Positions 49,163 to 54,213 of a stretch of 57,268 bases of DNA are shown here, one piece after another. Location: positions 1 through 57,268 of the forward strand of contig NZ_CAKZRO010000139.1 of assembly GCF_937146585.1 (NCBI RefSeq). The letters are read 5' to 3'. A program made the position numbers and the translations under genes. Every line of letters begins with the position of its first letter. Position 1 is the stretch's first letter. The notes beneath the pieces were generated by a model, which ran no database searches, was not told the origin of the DNA, and saw nothing but the letters and a program-made list of their open reading frames with translations. Origin of the DNA: an uncultured Halorubrum sp. GTDB taxonomy: Archaea > Halobacteriota > Halobacteria > Halobacteriales > Haloferacaceae.

Positions 49163-49213
49163 ATGAACCGGACACGGCGGCGGTCCGCGGAGGCGAGAGC
49201 GCGTGGTCGGTGA
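49163..49213 (+). CDS. Possible 16-residue leader ORF overlapping the CoA-transferase start
   Basis: ATG at 49163 opens a 16-codon, strongly basic frame (starts MNRTRRRSAE) ending 11 bases after the GTG start of the CoA-transferase. A GGAGG at 49189-49193 is spaced nine bases from that GTG, so the GTG itself is well placed for ribosome binding. This one may well be chance. Confidence 0.2.
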   Translation: MNRTRRRSAEARARGR

Positions 49214-50480
49214 GGCGCGCGACCCCGAGAGCGACGTCGGGCCGCTGGACGGGCTCACCGTGTTGGACCTCTCTCGGGTCCTCGTCGGCCCGTTCTGTAC
49301 GATGCAGCTCGGCGACCTCGGCGCGGAGGTGATCAAAGTCGAGCGGCCCGGCCGGGGCGACCAGACCCGGACGTGGGTCCCGCCGGCGTTCAGTGCGGAC
49401 GACGGTGACGCCGGCGGGGAGGACGGAGACGACGACGGCGACGCGAGCGCCTACTACGTCAGCGTCAACCGCAACAAGCGGTCGATCCAGCTGGACCTGA
49501 CAACCGAGGCGGGGCGCGCGGTCGTCCGCGACCTCGCGCGGGAGGCCGACGTGCTCGTCGAGAACTTCCGCGTCGGGAAGACCGCCGAGTGGGGCCTCGA
49601 CTACGGCGACCTCGTCGCGGAGAACCCCGGGCTCGTCTACTGCGCCATCTCCGGCTACGGCGAGTGGGGCCCCGACCGCGACAAGCCAGCCTACGACATC
49701 ATGATGCAGGCCCGCGGCGGCTTCATGTCGTTCACCGGCGTCGAGGGCGGACCGCCGGTCCGGATCGGCGTCGCGCTCGCCGACGTCGGGGCCGGGATGT
49801 ACGCGACGCAGGCGATCCTCGCCGCCCTGCTTGAACGCGAGATCGGCGACGGCCGCGGGCAGAAGATCGACGTGAGCCTGTTGGACGGGCAGGCCGCCTG
49901 GACCAGCTACATGGCGACGAACTACTTCGCCAGCGGCGACCCGCCGGGGCGGATGGGAAGCAAACACCCGAACATCGTCCCGTACCAGGCGTTCGAGACG
50001 AGCGACGGGTACGTCGTCGTCGCCTGCTCGTCGGACCGGTTCTGGCCGCCGCTGTGCGAGGCGGTCGACCGCCCCGACCTGCTCGCCGACGAGCGGTTGG
50101 AGACGAACGAGGGGCGCGTCCGGAACCGCGAGTTCGTCGACCGCGAGCTGGGGGAGACGTTCGCGGCGATGTCGACGGCTGAGGCGGTCGAGCGGCTCGA
50201 AGCCCACGACGTGCCCGCGAGCCGCGTCCGCGACGTGAGCGAGGTGTTCGCGGACCCCCAGATCGAGGCGCGGGGGATGCTCGCCGAGGCCGAACACCCG
50301 ACCGCGGGCACGGTGCGGTTCCCCGGCTCGCCGATGCAGTTCTCGCGGACGCCGACGACCGTCCGCCGCCATCCGCCGGCGCTCGGCGAGCACACGGAGT
50401 CGGTGCTACGGGAGTACGGCTACGACGCGGGCGACGTCGACGAACTCCGAGAGCGCGGCGCGATTCCGGGGCCGCGATAA
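49203..50480 (+). CDS. Class III (CaiB/BaiF) CoA-transferase
   Basis: A 425-residue family III CoA-transferase, moving CoA between carboxylic acids by ping-pong through an aspartyl-CoA. The catalytic aspartate is D165 in KPAYDIMMQARGG, and VLDLSRVLVGPFCTMQLGDL near the start plus KIDVSLLDGQAAWTSYMATN are family marks. An acidic loop (about 66-80) is a haloarchaeal insertion. GTG start with GGAGG at nine bases. Facing aceA and a CitE-type lyase suggests a role with mesaconate, malate or succinate CoA esters, such as the Mct of the methylaspartate cycle, but formate, oxalate or carnitine relatives are similar. Confidence 0.88.
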   Translation: MVGEARDPESDVGPLDGLTVLDLSRVLVGPFCTMQLGDLGAEVIKVERPGRGDQTRTWVPPAFSADDGDAGGEDGDDDGDASAYYVSVNRNKRSIQLDLTTEAGRAVVRDLAREADVLVENFRVGKTAEWGLDYGDLVAENPGLVYCAISGYGEWGPDRDKPAYDIMMQARGGFMSFTGVEGGPPVRIGVALADVGAGMYATQAILAALLEREIGDGRGQKIDVSLLDGQAAWTSYMATNYFASGDPPGRMGSKHPNIVPYQAFETSDGYVVVACSSDRFWPPLCEAVDRPDLLADERLETNEGRVRNREFVDRELGETFAAMSTAEAVERLEAHDVPASRVRDVSEVFADPQIEARGMLAEAEHPTAGTVRFPGSPMQFSRTPTTVRRHPPALGEHTESVLREYGYDAGDVDELRERGAIPGPR

Positions 50481-50506: not shown

Positions 50507-51427
50507 CTACAGGATGCCGGCCTGTTCGGCGCGCGCGACGATGCCGCGGGCCATCTTGTCCGTCGCCTCGTCGACCATCTCGCCGTCGACCGAGACGGCG
50601 CCCCTGCCCTGTTCTTTCGCCTCCGCGTAGGCGTCGACGATCCGGCGGGCCTTCTCGGCCTCCTCGGGCGAGGGCGCGAACGTCTCGTTCGCGGGCTCGA
50701 TCTGGCTCGGGTGGATCGCCCACTTGCCGTCACAGCCCAGCTGGCTCGCCCACCGGCAGGAGTCGCGGAACCCGTCCGTGTTCTCGATCTCGGCGTAGGG
50801 CCCGTCGATCACCTGGAGCCCCTGCGCCTTCGCCGCGTGGGCGATGCGCGCGAGCTGGTAGTGCCAGTAGTGGCCGGGATAGCCGCCGCCGGAGCCGATG
50901 GTGAGGCCGGACGCGCCGACGTTCGCGGTGTAGTCGCCGGGGCCGAAGACGAGCGACTCCAGCCGGTCGCTCGCGCGGGCGATGTCGGCGACCTTCGTCA
51001 TCGCCTCCGGCGACTCGATCTGCGCCTGGAGGCCGATCTCGCCGACCGGCAGGTCGTTGTTCGTCTCGACCTGCGTCAGCAGGTTGTCGACGGTGGCGAC
51101 CGTCTCCGGGTTGTTCGCCATCGGCACCATGATCGTGTCGAGGTGTTCGCCGGCCCGCCCGACGACCTCGATCACGTCGTCGTAGAACCACCGGGTGTCG
51201 ACGCCGTTCATCCGGTAACAGGGCCGGGTGTCGGACCAGTCGTACTCGATCAGGCCCTCGATAGCGTTCTCGCGGGCCTCGATCTTCTCGGACGGCGCCA
51301 CCGAGTCCTCCAAGTCGATGAACGCCTCGTCGGCCCCGGAGTCGGGCGCCCGCTCGATCATCTTCGGGTCGGAGCCCGGCGTCGCCAGCTGGCTCCGCCG
51401 GAGCGTGACGTCGTCCGGCCCGCCCAT
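50507..51427 (-). CDS. CitE-type (HpcH/HpaI) lyase, malyl-CoA or methylmalyl-CoA lyase-like
   Basis: A 306-residue TIM-barrel lyase of the CitE family. Arginine R11 in the RSQLATPGSD opening and the metal-binding acidic pair near FIDLEDSVAPSEK (residues 37-49) are seen, then GLQAQIESPEAM and VFGPGDYTANVG. It would cleave or form a C-C bond between glyoxylate and acetyl-CoA or propionyl-CoA. The haloarchaeal malate synthase described in Haloferax is about 430 residues and of a different sequence, so this is not that protein. Its ATG overlaps the aceA stop by one base, so it is the second gene of an aceA operon. Confidence 0.85.
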   Translation of the reverse strand: MGGPDDVTLRRSQLATPGSDPKMIERAPDSGADEAFIDLEDSVAPSEKIEARENAIEGLIEYDWSDTRPCYRMNGVDTRWFYDDVIEVVGRAGEHLDTIMVPMANNPETVATVDNLLTQVETNNDLPVGEIGLQAQIESPEAMTKVADIARASDRLESLVFGPGDYTANVGASGLTIGSGGGYPGHYWHYQLARIAHAAKAQGLQVIDGPYAEIENTDGFRDSCRWASQLGCDGKWAIHPSQIEPANETFAPSPEEAEKARRIVDAYAEAKEQGRGAVSVDGEMVDEATDKMARGIVARAEQAGIL

Positions 51428-52470
51428 CAGTCGTCACCCCCCTCGGAGGCGGTGATCGGGTCGTTCTCTTCCTCGGTGAAGCCGGCCGACTCCTCCTGGC
51501 GCTTCCGGGCCTCGGGGTCGAACTCGGCCTCGATGTCCTGATACCGCGGGACGAAGGAGAGCTCGTGGTGGCTCTCGGTCTCGTGGCCGATGTAGCGCTC
51601 CTCGAGGTCGAACTGCGCCGCCTCGTCGTTCTCGGCGATGTTCGCGAAGTCCTCGTAGGCGGCGTGCGCGCCGGAGTGGAGCCCGAACAGCGTGATGAAG
51701 ATGTACTGGTAGCCCAGGTCGCCCAGCTCCTCGAAGGTGAGCGGGTCCTCCTCGGCGCCCCACTCGAACGACGAGGAGTAGTTGAACGCCAGGTCGAGGT
51801 CCGGGTGGGTCTCGTGGATCGTCTCGGCGTACTCGACCGCGTCCTCGCGGGACGGGTCGGGCATCTCCGGCCAGACGAGGTCGACGCCGGCGTCGGCGTA
51901 GATCCGCCCGCGTTCGAGGTGCTCCTCCCAGTCGCCGTTGGCGGAGCCGTACGCGTCGGTGCGGGCGATGATCACCGTGTCCTCGCTCTGCTTGGCGTCG
52001 ACGGCGGCCTCGAAGCGCGAGCGCGCCTGCTCGCGGGAGACGATCTGCTTGCCGGCGATGTGCCCGCAGCGCTTCGGCGAGGTCTGGTCCTCGATGTGGA
52101 CGGCGGCGACGCCGGCCTTCTCGTACTCGCGGACCGCGCGCCGGACGTTGTGGACGCCCCCGTAGCCGGTGTCGCAGTCGGCGATGACGGGAAGGTTCGT
52201 CGCCTCGACCATGCGTTTCGCGTTCTCGACCATCTCGGACATCGTGACCATCTCCAGGTCGGGGAAGCCGAACTGGCCGAGGACGGTCGAGTAGCCGCTC
52301 ATGTAGGCCGCGTCGAGCCCGGCCATCTCGGCGAGGCGGGCGTCGAGCGCGTGGTAGATCCCGGGCGCGAACGTGTACTCCTGCTCGTCGAACAGCTCGC
52401 GGAGTCGGCGGCCGGCCGGGTTGTCGATATCTCTGGTGAAGACGTCGTCGTCGAGTTCGTTGGGATTCAT
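51427..52470 (-). CDS. aceA: Isocitrate lyase
   Basis: A 347-residue isocitrate lyase, splitting isocitrate to glyoxylate and succinate. The signature KRCGH is at 133-137 (catalytic C135), preceded by [18 protein letters not shown] and HIEDQTSPK. The C-terminal acidic tail is a haloarchaeal trait. It is shorter than bacterial enzymes, like other haloarchaeal isocitrate lyases. The start at 52470 follows the stop of a small ORF by four bases. No TATA box is seen in the GC-rich 500 bases upstream; the nearest is at about 53101-53107, so the mRNA may have a long leader of short ORFs. Confidence 0.94.
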
Positions 52471-52474
52471 CGAG

Positions 52475-52672
52475 TTACTGCGTGGCGTCGTCTGCGGTGC
52501 GGTTCGACGCGGCGGAGCGCCCGCCGGCGCGGCGAGCGGCGGGCGCGAACGCCGTGGAATCGGGGCGCGGGCCGTCGCCGGTCCCGGTCATCGGGACGGC
52601 GCGGCGGAACGACTCCTCGGGGTCCGCGCTTGCGGAGCGGTCGCGGGGACGGAGCGTCGCGTTCGCCGTCAT
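52475..52672 (-). CDS. Short ORF 3 of the aceA leader (65 codons)
   Basis: An open frame of 65 residues, starting [12 protein letters not shown], that ends four bases before the aceA ATG. Its start overlaps the stop of the previous short ORF (ATGA). It contains [15 protein letters not shown], which resembles the acidic, Ala-Pro, Thr pattern of ORF 2. No known domain. Coding status uncertain, but high third-position G/C and tight spacing support translation. Confidence 0.4.
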
Positions 52673-52706
52673 CGCGACCCCCCGTCGGTCCGCGTTCGCG
52701 GAGCGG
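52621..52706. repeat. Pair of near-identical 20-base direct repeats in the aceA leader
   Basis: GGTCCGCG followed by a variable two or three bases and GCGGAGCGG occurs at 52621-52640 and again at 52687-52706, 66 bases apart, with two differences. The two copies lie in different reading frames of the overlapping short ORFs, pointing to duplication with frame change in the leader. Each copy is itself an imperfect inverted repeat. Confidence 0.6.
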
Positions 52707-52989
52707 GACGCAGGTCGGGGACCAGCGGCGCGTCGCGCTCGTCGTCCGTCGGGGGGCGGGCGGGTCGGGGAGCGTCGGTCGTCTGCGGCGAGCCGGACGA
52801 CCGCGTCTGCGTCGCTCGCCGAGTGGTGATCGCTGGGACCAACGGCGCGCCGGCCTCCTCGGTCAGCGGGGTGCGGCCGGGGATCGTCCGCGGAGAAGTG
52901 GTCGTGCCGGTCCGGTCGGTCGAGTCCGGATCGGTCGTCGTGTCGGTGCGTCGGGTCGTGTCGTCGGGCGTGTCGTTAGGCGTCGTCAT
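52669..52989 (-). CDS. Short ORF 2 of the aceA leader (Thr/Asp/Pro/Arg-rich)
   Basis: A 106-residue frame from the ATG at 52989, low-complexity at first (Thr, Asp, Pro, Arg), then two copies of an acidic dyad, APLVP, Thr-Arg motif: EEAGAPLVPAITTRRATQTR and DERDAPLVPDLRPAPRTRTD. A TTG at 53088 would extend it by 33 codons in frame. Third positions are mostly G/C, consistent with coding. The end overlaps ORF 3 (ATGA). No family is recognised. Confidence 0.45.
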   Translation of the reverse strand: MTTPNDTPDDTTRRTDTTTDPDSTDRTGTTTSPRTIPGRTPLTEEAGAPLVPAITTRRATQTRSSGSPQTTDAPRPARPPTDDERDAPLVPDLRPAPRTRTDGGSR

Positions 52990-53074
52990 CGGGTCGTGTG
53001 GGCGGTTGCGGCGGTCGTCTGGTGATCGCGTCTGTGCGGCGGCCGGCTGCGTGTCCGTGTACGGATACTGCCAT
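52976..53074 (-). CDS. Short ORF 1 of the aceA leader (32 codons, leaderless candidate)
   Basis: Starts MAVSVHGHAAGRRTDAITRR and is Pro/Arg-rich afterwards. Its ATG lies about 27-30 bases downstream of the TTTAATA box (minus strand), so it is where leaderless translation would begin. It overlaps the ATG of ORF 2 by 14 bases. Its codon third positions are A-rich, unlike the surrounding genes, so it could be chance. Confidence 0.3.
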   Translation of the reverse strand: MAVSVHGHAAGRRTDAITRRPPQPPTRPDDDA

Positions 53075-53100
53075 TGCGACCGAAGCAAATCGGAGGACGG

Positions 53101-53132
53101 TATTAAACATAATGATTGATAATGATAATATT
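53101..53132. promoter_or_regulatory. AT-rich promoter with direct repeats of the aceA leader
   Basis: On the minus strand TTTAATA (53101-53107) is a good TATA box for a start at about 53075. Immediately upstream the plus strand has ATAATGAT at 53109-53116 and again at 53119-53126, a period of 10 bases, plus a third partial copy (ATAATATT) at 53125-53132. Repeats one helical turn apart on one face of the DNA are typical of cooperative activator binding. The whole block is one of the most AT-rich in the window. Confidence 0.6.
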
Positions 53133-53304
53133 CGTTATGTTGTTTTATCCGATTAAATGTTCCATGACAACACGCACCACGATAACCCGACCGACCCCCG
53201 ACGCGTACTGACCGAATCCCGAGAGCACGCCGGGGCCAGCGATGAAATCGACGGCGACCGCCGGGACCGATCGCTTATTGGCCTCGCCGCGCGGAGCGTA
53301 GGTA

Positions 53305-54213
53305 GTGAACGAGCGCGACGCCCTCCGGGCCCTCGCGGCCGACCTCCCGCACGCGGGCGACGACGCCGCCGTCGTCGACGGGACGGTGATCACGACGGAC
53401 ATGCTCCACGAGCGGACCGACTTCCCGCCCGGCACGACGCGGTACACCGCCGGCTGGCGCGCAGTCGGCGCGTCGCTCTCGGACGTGGCCGCGATGGGCG
53501 CGGCCGCCCGGGCCGCGGTCGCCGTCTACGCCGACGCCGCGTTCGACCCCGGGGATCTGGACCGGTTCGTCGCCGGCGCGGTCGACGTCTCCGAGGCGGT
53601 CGACGCCGAGTACGTGGGCGGCGACCTCGACGAGCACGTCGAGTTCACGACCGCGACCACCGCCGTCGGGCGCGTGACCGACGCCGGAGCCGTCACCCGA
53701 GACGGGGCGGGGCCGGGCGACGCCCTCTGCGTCACCGGCGAGTGGGGCCGGTCCGCGGCGGCGCTGCGGCTGTTCGAGCGCGGCGACGAGGAGTCGGTCG
53801 AGCGCGCGAACGAACTGTTCCGGTTCGCGCCGCGGGTCGCGGACGGGCTGGCGCTCGCGGGGACGGCGACCGCGATGATGGACTCTTCGGACGGGCTGGC
53901 GCGGTCGTGTCACCAGCTCGCCGAGGCGAGCGGCGCGCGGATAGAGTTGGAGCGCGAGGCGCTCCCGGTCCACCCCGCGGTCGACGAGGTCGCCGACGGG
54001 GAGGGCGAGCGGTTCGAGCTGGCGGCCCACTTCGGCGAGGACTTCGAGCTGGTCTGTGCGGTCCCGGAGTCGGCGGTGTCGGCGGTCAGCGAAGCGTGTC
54101 CGGCGGGGCTCACGCGGATCGGGACGGTGAGGGAGGCGCCGGAAGGGGGACCGCGCGTCGTCGCCGACGGCGACCCGCTGCCCGACCGCGGGTTCACGCA
54201 CGGCGACGAGTGA
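53305..54213 (+). CDS. thiL: Thiamine-monophosphate kinase
   Basis: A 302-residue ThiL that phosphorylates thiamine monophosphate to the active diphosphate. Start ERDALRALAADLPHAGDDAA, then VITTDMLHERTDFPPGTT (Mg-binding Asp), SDVAAMGA and MMDSSDGLARSCHQLAEASG are the family's ATP and substrate-binding stretches. GTG start with CTTATTGG about 28 bases upstream suggests a leaderless mRNA. Divergent from the aceA leader across the AT-rich promoter block. Confidence 0.94.
   Translation: MNERDALRALAADLPHAGDDAAVVDGTVITTDMLHERTDFPPGTTRYTAGWRAVGASLSDVAAMGAAARAAVAVYADAAFDPGDLDRFVAGAVDVSEAVDAEYVGGDLDEHVEFTTATTAVGRVTDAGAVTRDGAGPGDALCVTGEWGRSAAALRLFERGDEESVERANELFRFAPRVADGLALAGTATAMMDSSDGLARSCHQLAEASGARIELEREALPVHPAVDEVADGEGERFELAAHFGEDFELVCAVPESAVSAVSEACPAGLTRIGTVREAPEGGPRVVADGDPLPDRGFTHGDE

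Follow-up and report, generated by a model that had tools for sequence, protein, structure and literature searches.

Results

Organization of the aceA leader

The window, i.e. the whole stretch of 57,268 nucleotides that was analysed, contains on its minus strand three short open reading frames lined up between a promoter-like block and aceA, the gene for isocitrate lyase. In window coordinates the locus comprises the following features:

53305..54213, plus strand: thiL, the divergent neighbour that bounds the leader (TIGR01379 above cut-off)
53110..53132, minus strand: conserved block upstream of the promoter, AATATTATCATTATCAATCATTA, a putative operator/BRE region, from the comparison among Halorubrum genomes
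53101..53107, minus strand: TATA-like TTTAATA (TTTATTA in most relatives), placed by its spacing to the ORF1 ATG
52976..53074, minus strand: ORF1, 32 aa, MAVSVHGHAAGRRTDAITRRPPQPPTRPDDDA, probably a leaderless first cistron (alignment A1)
52976..52989, minus strand: overlap of ORF1 and ORF2, 14 nt, ATGACGACGCCTAA, read from the sequence
52669..52989, minus strand: ORF2, 106 aa, a predicted disordered microprotein with the motifs IPGRTPLTEEAGAPLVP and ERDAPLVPDLRP (alignment A2)
52834..52863, minus strand: first motif copy in ORF2, TEEAGAPLVP, with residues invariant in Halorubrum
52709..52731, minus strand: second motif copy in ORF2, APLVPDLR, the sole match to the degenerate pattern in its genome
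52669..52672, minus strand: ATGA stop/start overlap of ORF2 and ORF3, read from the sequence
52475..52672, minus strand: ORF3, 65 aa, with a motif of 13 residues (alignment A3)
51427..52470, minus strand: aceA, isocitrate lyase, 347 aa (PF13714 and PF00463 above cut-off)
50507..51427, minus strand: C-C lyase of the CitE/HpcH-HpaI type, the probable fifth cistron (PF03328 above cut-off)

The ORF3 stop and the aceA ATG are 4 nt apart in the window. AceA shares 82% identity with the Haloferax prahovense protein. The gene for the C-C lyase (50507-51427) shares 1 nt with the aceA stop, and its product falls below all NCBIfam cut-offs. A CaiB-like CoA-transferase candidate, recognized by eye at 49203-50480 on the plus strand, converges on this lyase gene. 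None of the 46 Halorubrum genomes with a completeness of 90% or more is matched by the model of the haloarchaeal malate synthase AceB.

ORF1 likely starts at the ATG at 53074, because in 35 of 37 relatives TTTAT and this ATG are spaced by exactly 33 nt; the window itself has TTTAA in place of TTTAT, with identical spacing to the ORF1 ATG. A TATA-like box at such a fixed distance before the first ATG probably suits a leaderless ORF1 transcript, and in Haloferax volcanii 72% of the protein-coding transcripts are leaderless (PMC4983044). On the conserved TTTAT spacing an ORF1 start at 53110 was replaced by the ATG at 53074, and for ORF2 a mechanically assigned TTG start gave way to the ATG at 52989. 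Readthrough in the ORF2 frame from upstream of ORF1, considered as an alternative N-terminus, was rejected, since relatives whose ORF1 begins with ATGACA carry TGA in the ORF2 frame.

The promoter block co-occurs with aceA

The block AATATTATCATTATCAATCATTA precedes aceA in nearly all Halorubrum genomes that possess this gene and is found in none that lack it. Likewise, the form AATATTATCATTATNNNTCATNA is confined to aceA-containing Halorubrum genomes, and three additional weaker sites also lie in such genomes. The block occurs a further time, as AATATTATCATTATGTGTCAAAA, in three genomes (G009:C4:110732, G027:C20:19449 and G047:C13:19325). In many lineages devoid of the small ORFs, often so in f4 and f5g23, a similar block is located at 57-200 nt from aceA, and in L188, an apparent case of ORF loss within an ORF-bearing clade, it lies 65 nt from aceA. 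The preliminary description had placed the promoter about 630 bases upstream of aceA; this agrees with the TTTAATA element, whose first base, 53107, lies 637 nt upstream of the aceA start codon, and with the short distance between block and aceA in lineages devoid of the ORFs.

Conservation of the ORF chain within Halorubrum

Among 52 Halorubrum genomes 42 have a match to AceA, one of them (G022) at 36% identity only. From 47 loci with thiL on the other side we obtained 38 distinct leaders of 669-925 nt, 37 of which were analysed. All 37 retain the chain, i.e. the promoter block, ORF1 33 nt further on, ORF2 and ORF3, so that the overlapping frames noticed in a single genome are not due to chance and the proposed frames prove conserved among relatives. 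The overlap of ORF1 and ORF2 measures 14 nt in 36 leaders; the 37th (L020) has a miscalled start and shows the standard arrangement when read. The ORF3 stop precedes aceA by 3-5 nt in 30 leaders, and in four others ORF3 overlaps aceA by 1-4 nt.

The junction of ORF3 and aceA is broken in three leaders, those of H. coriense (L002), H. kocurii (L024) and L008. In H. coriense (L002/L031) ORF3 is frameshifted, encodes 27 aa and ends 120 nt early; the ORF3 sequence past the frameshift is still conserved, and the frameshift is either real or a sequencing error. In H. kocurii part of the aceA 5' end is repeated in tandem and fills the gap of about 106 nt; the letter N occurs at the repeat. L008 harbours a duplicated junction of the ORF2/ORF3 type, which yields a fourth small ORF with a fresh ATGA overlap before aceA.

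At the protein level, alignment A1 of ORF1 has a mean column identity of 78%. ORF2 varies from 93 to 133 codons, and its frame is open in every case; Thr43, Glu44, Ala46, Gly47, Ala48, Pro49, Val51 and Pro52 are invariant in the 36 Halorubrum sequences of alignment A2. Among the representatives listed, GACGGGGGGTCGCG or a close variant precedes the ATGA of ORF2 and ORF3, and this run of G residues could pair with the anti-SD sequence CCUCC.

ORF2 and ORF3 evolve as proteins

Selection was assessed by dN/dS according to Nei-Gojobori over 29 leaders, with bootstrapping and with shifted frames as control. ORF2 gives a dN/dS of 0.41 (bootstrap 0.33-0.49) and a GC3 of 0.85, compared to 1.18 and 2.13 in the frames shifted by 1 and 2. 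The coding-like third positions originally noted for ORF2 are hence confirmed, and dN/dS fits that frame only. For ORF3 we obtained a dN/dS of 0.57, with wide bounds, and a GC3 of 0.91, and 0.97 and 1.68 for the shifted frames. The signal is stronger in the conserved blocks, i.e. DDERDAPLVPDLRP (0.11) and IPGRTPLTEEAGAPLVP (0.19) of ORF2 and the 13-residue motif of ORF3 (0.13 at a dS of 0.61). These values (0.11-0.19) are like that of aceA itself (0.12 at a dS of 0.25). Because purifying dN/dS and GC3 coincide in the proposed frames only, ORF2 and ORF3 are, on computational evidence, proteins under selection. ORF1 has a dN/dS of 0.65 (bootstrap 0.39-1.6) and a low dS of 0.20, which indicates conservation also at the nucleotide level; the constraint may act on the encoded peptide, on the nucleotide sequence or on both.

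ORF2 is rich in Thr, Arg, Pro and Asp, of low complexity and devoid of aromatic residues and cysteine; as Arg is frequent and Lys scarce, its tryptic peptides would be short. The structure model of ORF2 has a mean pLDDT of 63 and a pTM of 0.18; like the model of the Haloferax-type protein, it is mostly of low confidence, with better segments at APLVPDLRP and in a C-terminal helix. Many microproteins of the Haloferax and Haladaptatus types end in a predicted helix L..QL.RIE. Two copies of the motif within one ORF are present in Halorubrum, Halobellus and two other genera, which suggests multivalency. The microproteins have no match over cut-off in Pfam and NCBIfam, and a PDB sequence search with alignment A2 gave none. 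We found no paper on the microprotein in the open-access literature, nor any under the locus tags HVO_1984 and HVO_1985; an earlier account of an upstream ORF in H. volcanii may exist. The ace operon of H. volcanii was reportedly the subject of work by Serrano and Bonete in 2001. ORF2 accordingly appears as an undescribed microprotein, predicted to be mostly disordered, and ORF3 as an additional, Halorubrum-specific microprotein with a motif of its own.

Distribution outside Halorubrum

In an order-wide sample aceA is present in 121 of 293 genomes, and we inspected the sequence upstream of aceA at 80 loci outside Halorubrum. A small ORF with a motif lies directly upstream of aceA in 47 of these 80 loci, from 7 of the 10 families sampled; the arrangement, initially regarded as unusual for a core haloarchaeal gene, is no oddity of one genome. 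The ORF is of type I ([DE]AP[LIV]VP or close) in 31 loci and of type II (YTD.[ED]NTG.P.VP...SH) in 16, and 33 loci have neither. Among the named species with such an ORF are Haloferax prahovense, Halobaculum litoreum and Halobellus rarus. The microprotein overlaps aceA by 4 nt in 24 of 45 scored pairs and by 1 nt in 5, with starts called by script. A microprotein of the same group from Haladaptatus caseinilyticus (WP_266080981.1), also with a 4-nt overlap with aceA, is in the public record, but as a hypothetical protein only and with no family model. While the distance from the motif to aceA ranges from tens to hundreds of nt, the motif sequence is kept across families. In several other families the microprotein is preceded by ORF1-like first ORFs of the M.V[SH]...PP.PP[TI] type with PP-rich ends.

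On the AceA tree, whose root is arbitrary, there are 8 changes among the three states type I, type II and neither, by tallies that precede the reassignment of L185. The trait hence tracks lineages, with several gains or losses. Since many lineages (f4, f5g23) have aceA without the ORF, the latter is not essential to isocitrate lyase. These comparisons point to a chain of micro-ORFs before haloarchaeal aceA that would have been retained over very long evolutionary time.

Some loci depart from the common types. Five loci of f1g9 (L150-L152, L154 and L155) contain an extra conserved ORF of 29 aa, MTFNPNP.TDLDEID.RELSLF.TE.DDR, with a 4-nt overlap; it sits between ORF1 and the APLVP ORF and has a longer relative in L158 (f1g5). 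In f4g46 (L156, L161-L163 and L166), where the motif is lacking, a short ORF.{2}TMSD... directly follows the promoter; some of these ORFs carry a helix-like LRNQIRRLE and are possibly a remnant of the same family. The type II sequence YTDIENTG (e.g. L164:1064-1204) loosely resembles an 11-residue stretch of the AceA N-terminus from the same locus, possibly by mimicry or by chance.

Linkage to aceA

No Halorubrum genome has more than one match to a degenerate DNA pattern for APLVPDLR; the match is present in 36 of 52 genomes, each time in the aceA leader and never in a genome without aceA. The ORF3 profile is matched in 15 of 15 sampled Halorubrum genomes with aceA and in 0 of 4 without it, and it retrieved nothing convincing in the sample outside aceA-containing Halorubrum. 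The gene after aceA varies and may be CitE-like, aceB or neither, which leaves AceA as the common denominator. Residues 150 and 154 rank highest among the AceA columns that separate loci with and without the ORF; these columns, together with others, follow phylogeny and form no clear patch.

The linkage of ORF2 and ORF3 to aceA is in this way established computationally. The proposal that the frames encode real microproteins co-expressed with the glyoxylate genes gains strong support for ORF2 and ORF3 from selection, frame conservation and this linkage, all of it evidence from sequence.

Discussion

A proposed coupled operon with a candidate partner of AceA

We propose a polycistronic ace operon of which the leader forms the 5' portion and which is transcribed from the promoter block about 640 nt above aceA. 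Judging from the TATA spacing, we infer that the 5' end of the mRNA coincides with the ORF1 ATG or lies beside it. ORF1 would act as a short leaderless cistron that loads ribosomes, and termination-reinitiation at the overlaps would pass them from ORF1 to ORF2, ORF3 and aceA. ORF2, whose conserved portion consists of a single or paired short linear motif of the xP[LIV]VP type, would be produced in proportion to AceA and would, most likely, bind it in trans, either as an accessory or regulatory partner or as a multivalent tether. Taken together, we assign a probability of roughly 60% to an operon in which ribosomes are relayed via ORF1 and ORF2 is made in step with AceA and probably binds it.

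The relay is modelled on Haloferax volcanii, where co-directed gene pairs with overlaps of -4 or -1 nt, as here, undergo termination-reinitiation (Huber et al. 2019, 2023; PMC6728339, PMC10666635). Reinitiation and coupling are gone by about 20 nt in that organism (PMC10666635). The 4-nt overlap and the 4-nt gap of the window fall within the range of -8 to +10 nt, while the 14-nt overlap exceeds -8. By this geometry and by analogy to the measured H. volcanii pairs, translation of ORF2 is probably wired to that of AceA. Overlapping coupled pairs of H. volcanii often encode subunits of complexes (PMC6728339, PMC10666635); pairs spaced by -8 to +10 nt are assigned to heteromeric complexes in 45.2% of cases, compared to 5.6% for distant pairs (PMC10666635). 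This enrichment, the coupled design, the doubled motif and the variable gene after aceA lend indirect support to the hypothesis that ORF2 binds AceA. In contrast to the H. volcanii pairs, the upstream genes here encode undescribed disordered microproteins in series from a probably leaderless ORF, the first overlap of -14 nt is unusual, and coupling is deduced from geometry.

Alternatively, the short ORFs could act purely in cis and deliver or meter ribosomes to aceA, with peptides that have no function. The overlap geometry throughout the chain is consistent with this, as are the nucleotide-level constraint on ORF1 and its PP.PP-type ends in many lineages, and in a variant of this model the terminal PP.PP of ORF1 might slow ribosomes before reinitiation. 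We nevertheless consider functionless peptides unlikely, as the blocks of ORF2 and ORF3 are conserved as protein at high dS and the motif, which is duplicated within the protein, persists across families despite its variable distance to aceA.

The microprotein might also bind a partner other than AceA, such as isocitrate dehydrogenase, an enzyme that forms malate or a transcription regulator acting at the promoter block, and so steer carbon at the isocitrate branch point. Its position in the operon recalls that of AceK in E. coli aceBAK, and promoter block and motif occur in the same aceA-containing genomes. The promoter block is, however, also present where the microprotein is absent, and we regard such a partner as improbable. 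In E. coli aceBAK the branch-point regulator AceK, a large kinase/phosphatase, is encoded together with isocitrate lyase; here, in contrast, the proteins mostly comprise 40-135 aa, are disordered and are encoded upstream of aceA, and for them a regulatory role is possible.

A further model holds that aceA is switched on or off by stalling during translation of ORF1 or ORF2, in response to a metabolite or to the status of aIF5A. The conserved proline-rich motifs and the overlapping downstream cistron would accommodate nascent-chain arrest or attenuation, and the leader peptides of trp, TnaC and SecM are likewise encoded by short ORFs directly before the regulated gene. The comparison ends there, as we find neither conserved RNA structure nor a fixed distance from motif to gene, and ORF2 and ORF3 are under selection at the protein level. 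RNAalifold from the promoter to early ORF2, a region including the ORF1/ORF2 start, yields -4.27 kcal/mol with a covariation term of -0.32 and one compensatory pair. The ORF2 motif lies far from the end of the protein, at variable distance and often in two copies, while the PP.PP of ORF1 is near its stop, where ribosomes may stall. A scan for sigma-70 promoters and terminators, which applies a bacterial model to a haloarchaeon, detected nothing and in particular no terminator-like site. Overall we regard arrest or attenuation as very improbable. A translational relay or an attenuation-like switch had been suggested at the outset; the relay is favoured by the geometry (14, 4, then 4-5 nt), while attenuation by RNA structure (-4.3 kcal/mol) is not.

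That the ORFs are decaying, as the preliminary description had allowed, or spurious products of GC-rich sequence can practically be dismissed: the low-complexity composition rich in Thr, Asp, Arg and Pro and the one frameshifted ORF3 would fit, but purifying selection is confined to the proposed frames, ORF2 varies by 40 codons without loss of frame, and the ORFs occur in other families.

Relation to small-protein partners of enzymes

If AceA is indeed bound, the closest functional parallel to ORF2 would be the small proteins that associate with enzymes. Such partners or inhibitors of metabolic enzymes include cyanobacterial IF7/IF17 and CP12 and the archaeal pair of sP26 and glutamine synthetase (PMC7760959, PMC11957540), each a short protein tied to one central enzyme as hypothesized for ORF2. 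ORF2 differs in that it sits in the operon of its putative partner enzyme, with overlap, and has a repeated P[LIV]VP motif. Searches of Pfam and NCBIfam, and of PDB with alignment A2, gave no homology of ORF2-type proteins to families of the IF7, CP12 or sP26 type.

Isocitrate lyase governs the split between respiration and growth on acetate. In the literature searched, no dedicated protein regulator of this enzyme is described for haloarchaea. It is conceivable, at somewhat less than even odds, that a so far undescribed group of disordered small proteins with a repeated docking motif, [DE]AP[LIV]VP or NTG.P.VP, is coupled to AceA and serves much of the haloarchaeal glyoxylate shunt as a dedicated regulator or scaffold, with control over the activity or assembly of AceA at the isocitrate branch point. 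Short disordered proteins escape profile-based annotation and are recognized here by a motif of about six residues together with gene position. The natural chain of overlapping micro-ORFs, with a probably leaderless ORF at one end and a metabolic gene at the other, offers a good system for the study of termination-reinitiation, and the small-protein family tied to aceA represents a directly testable candidate for a regulator of isocitrate lyase.
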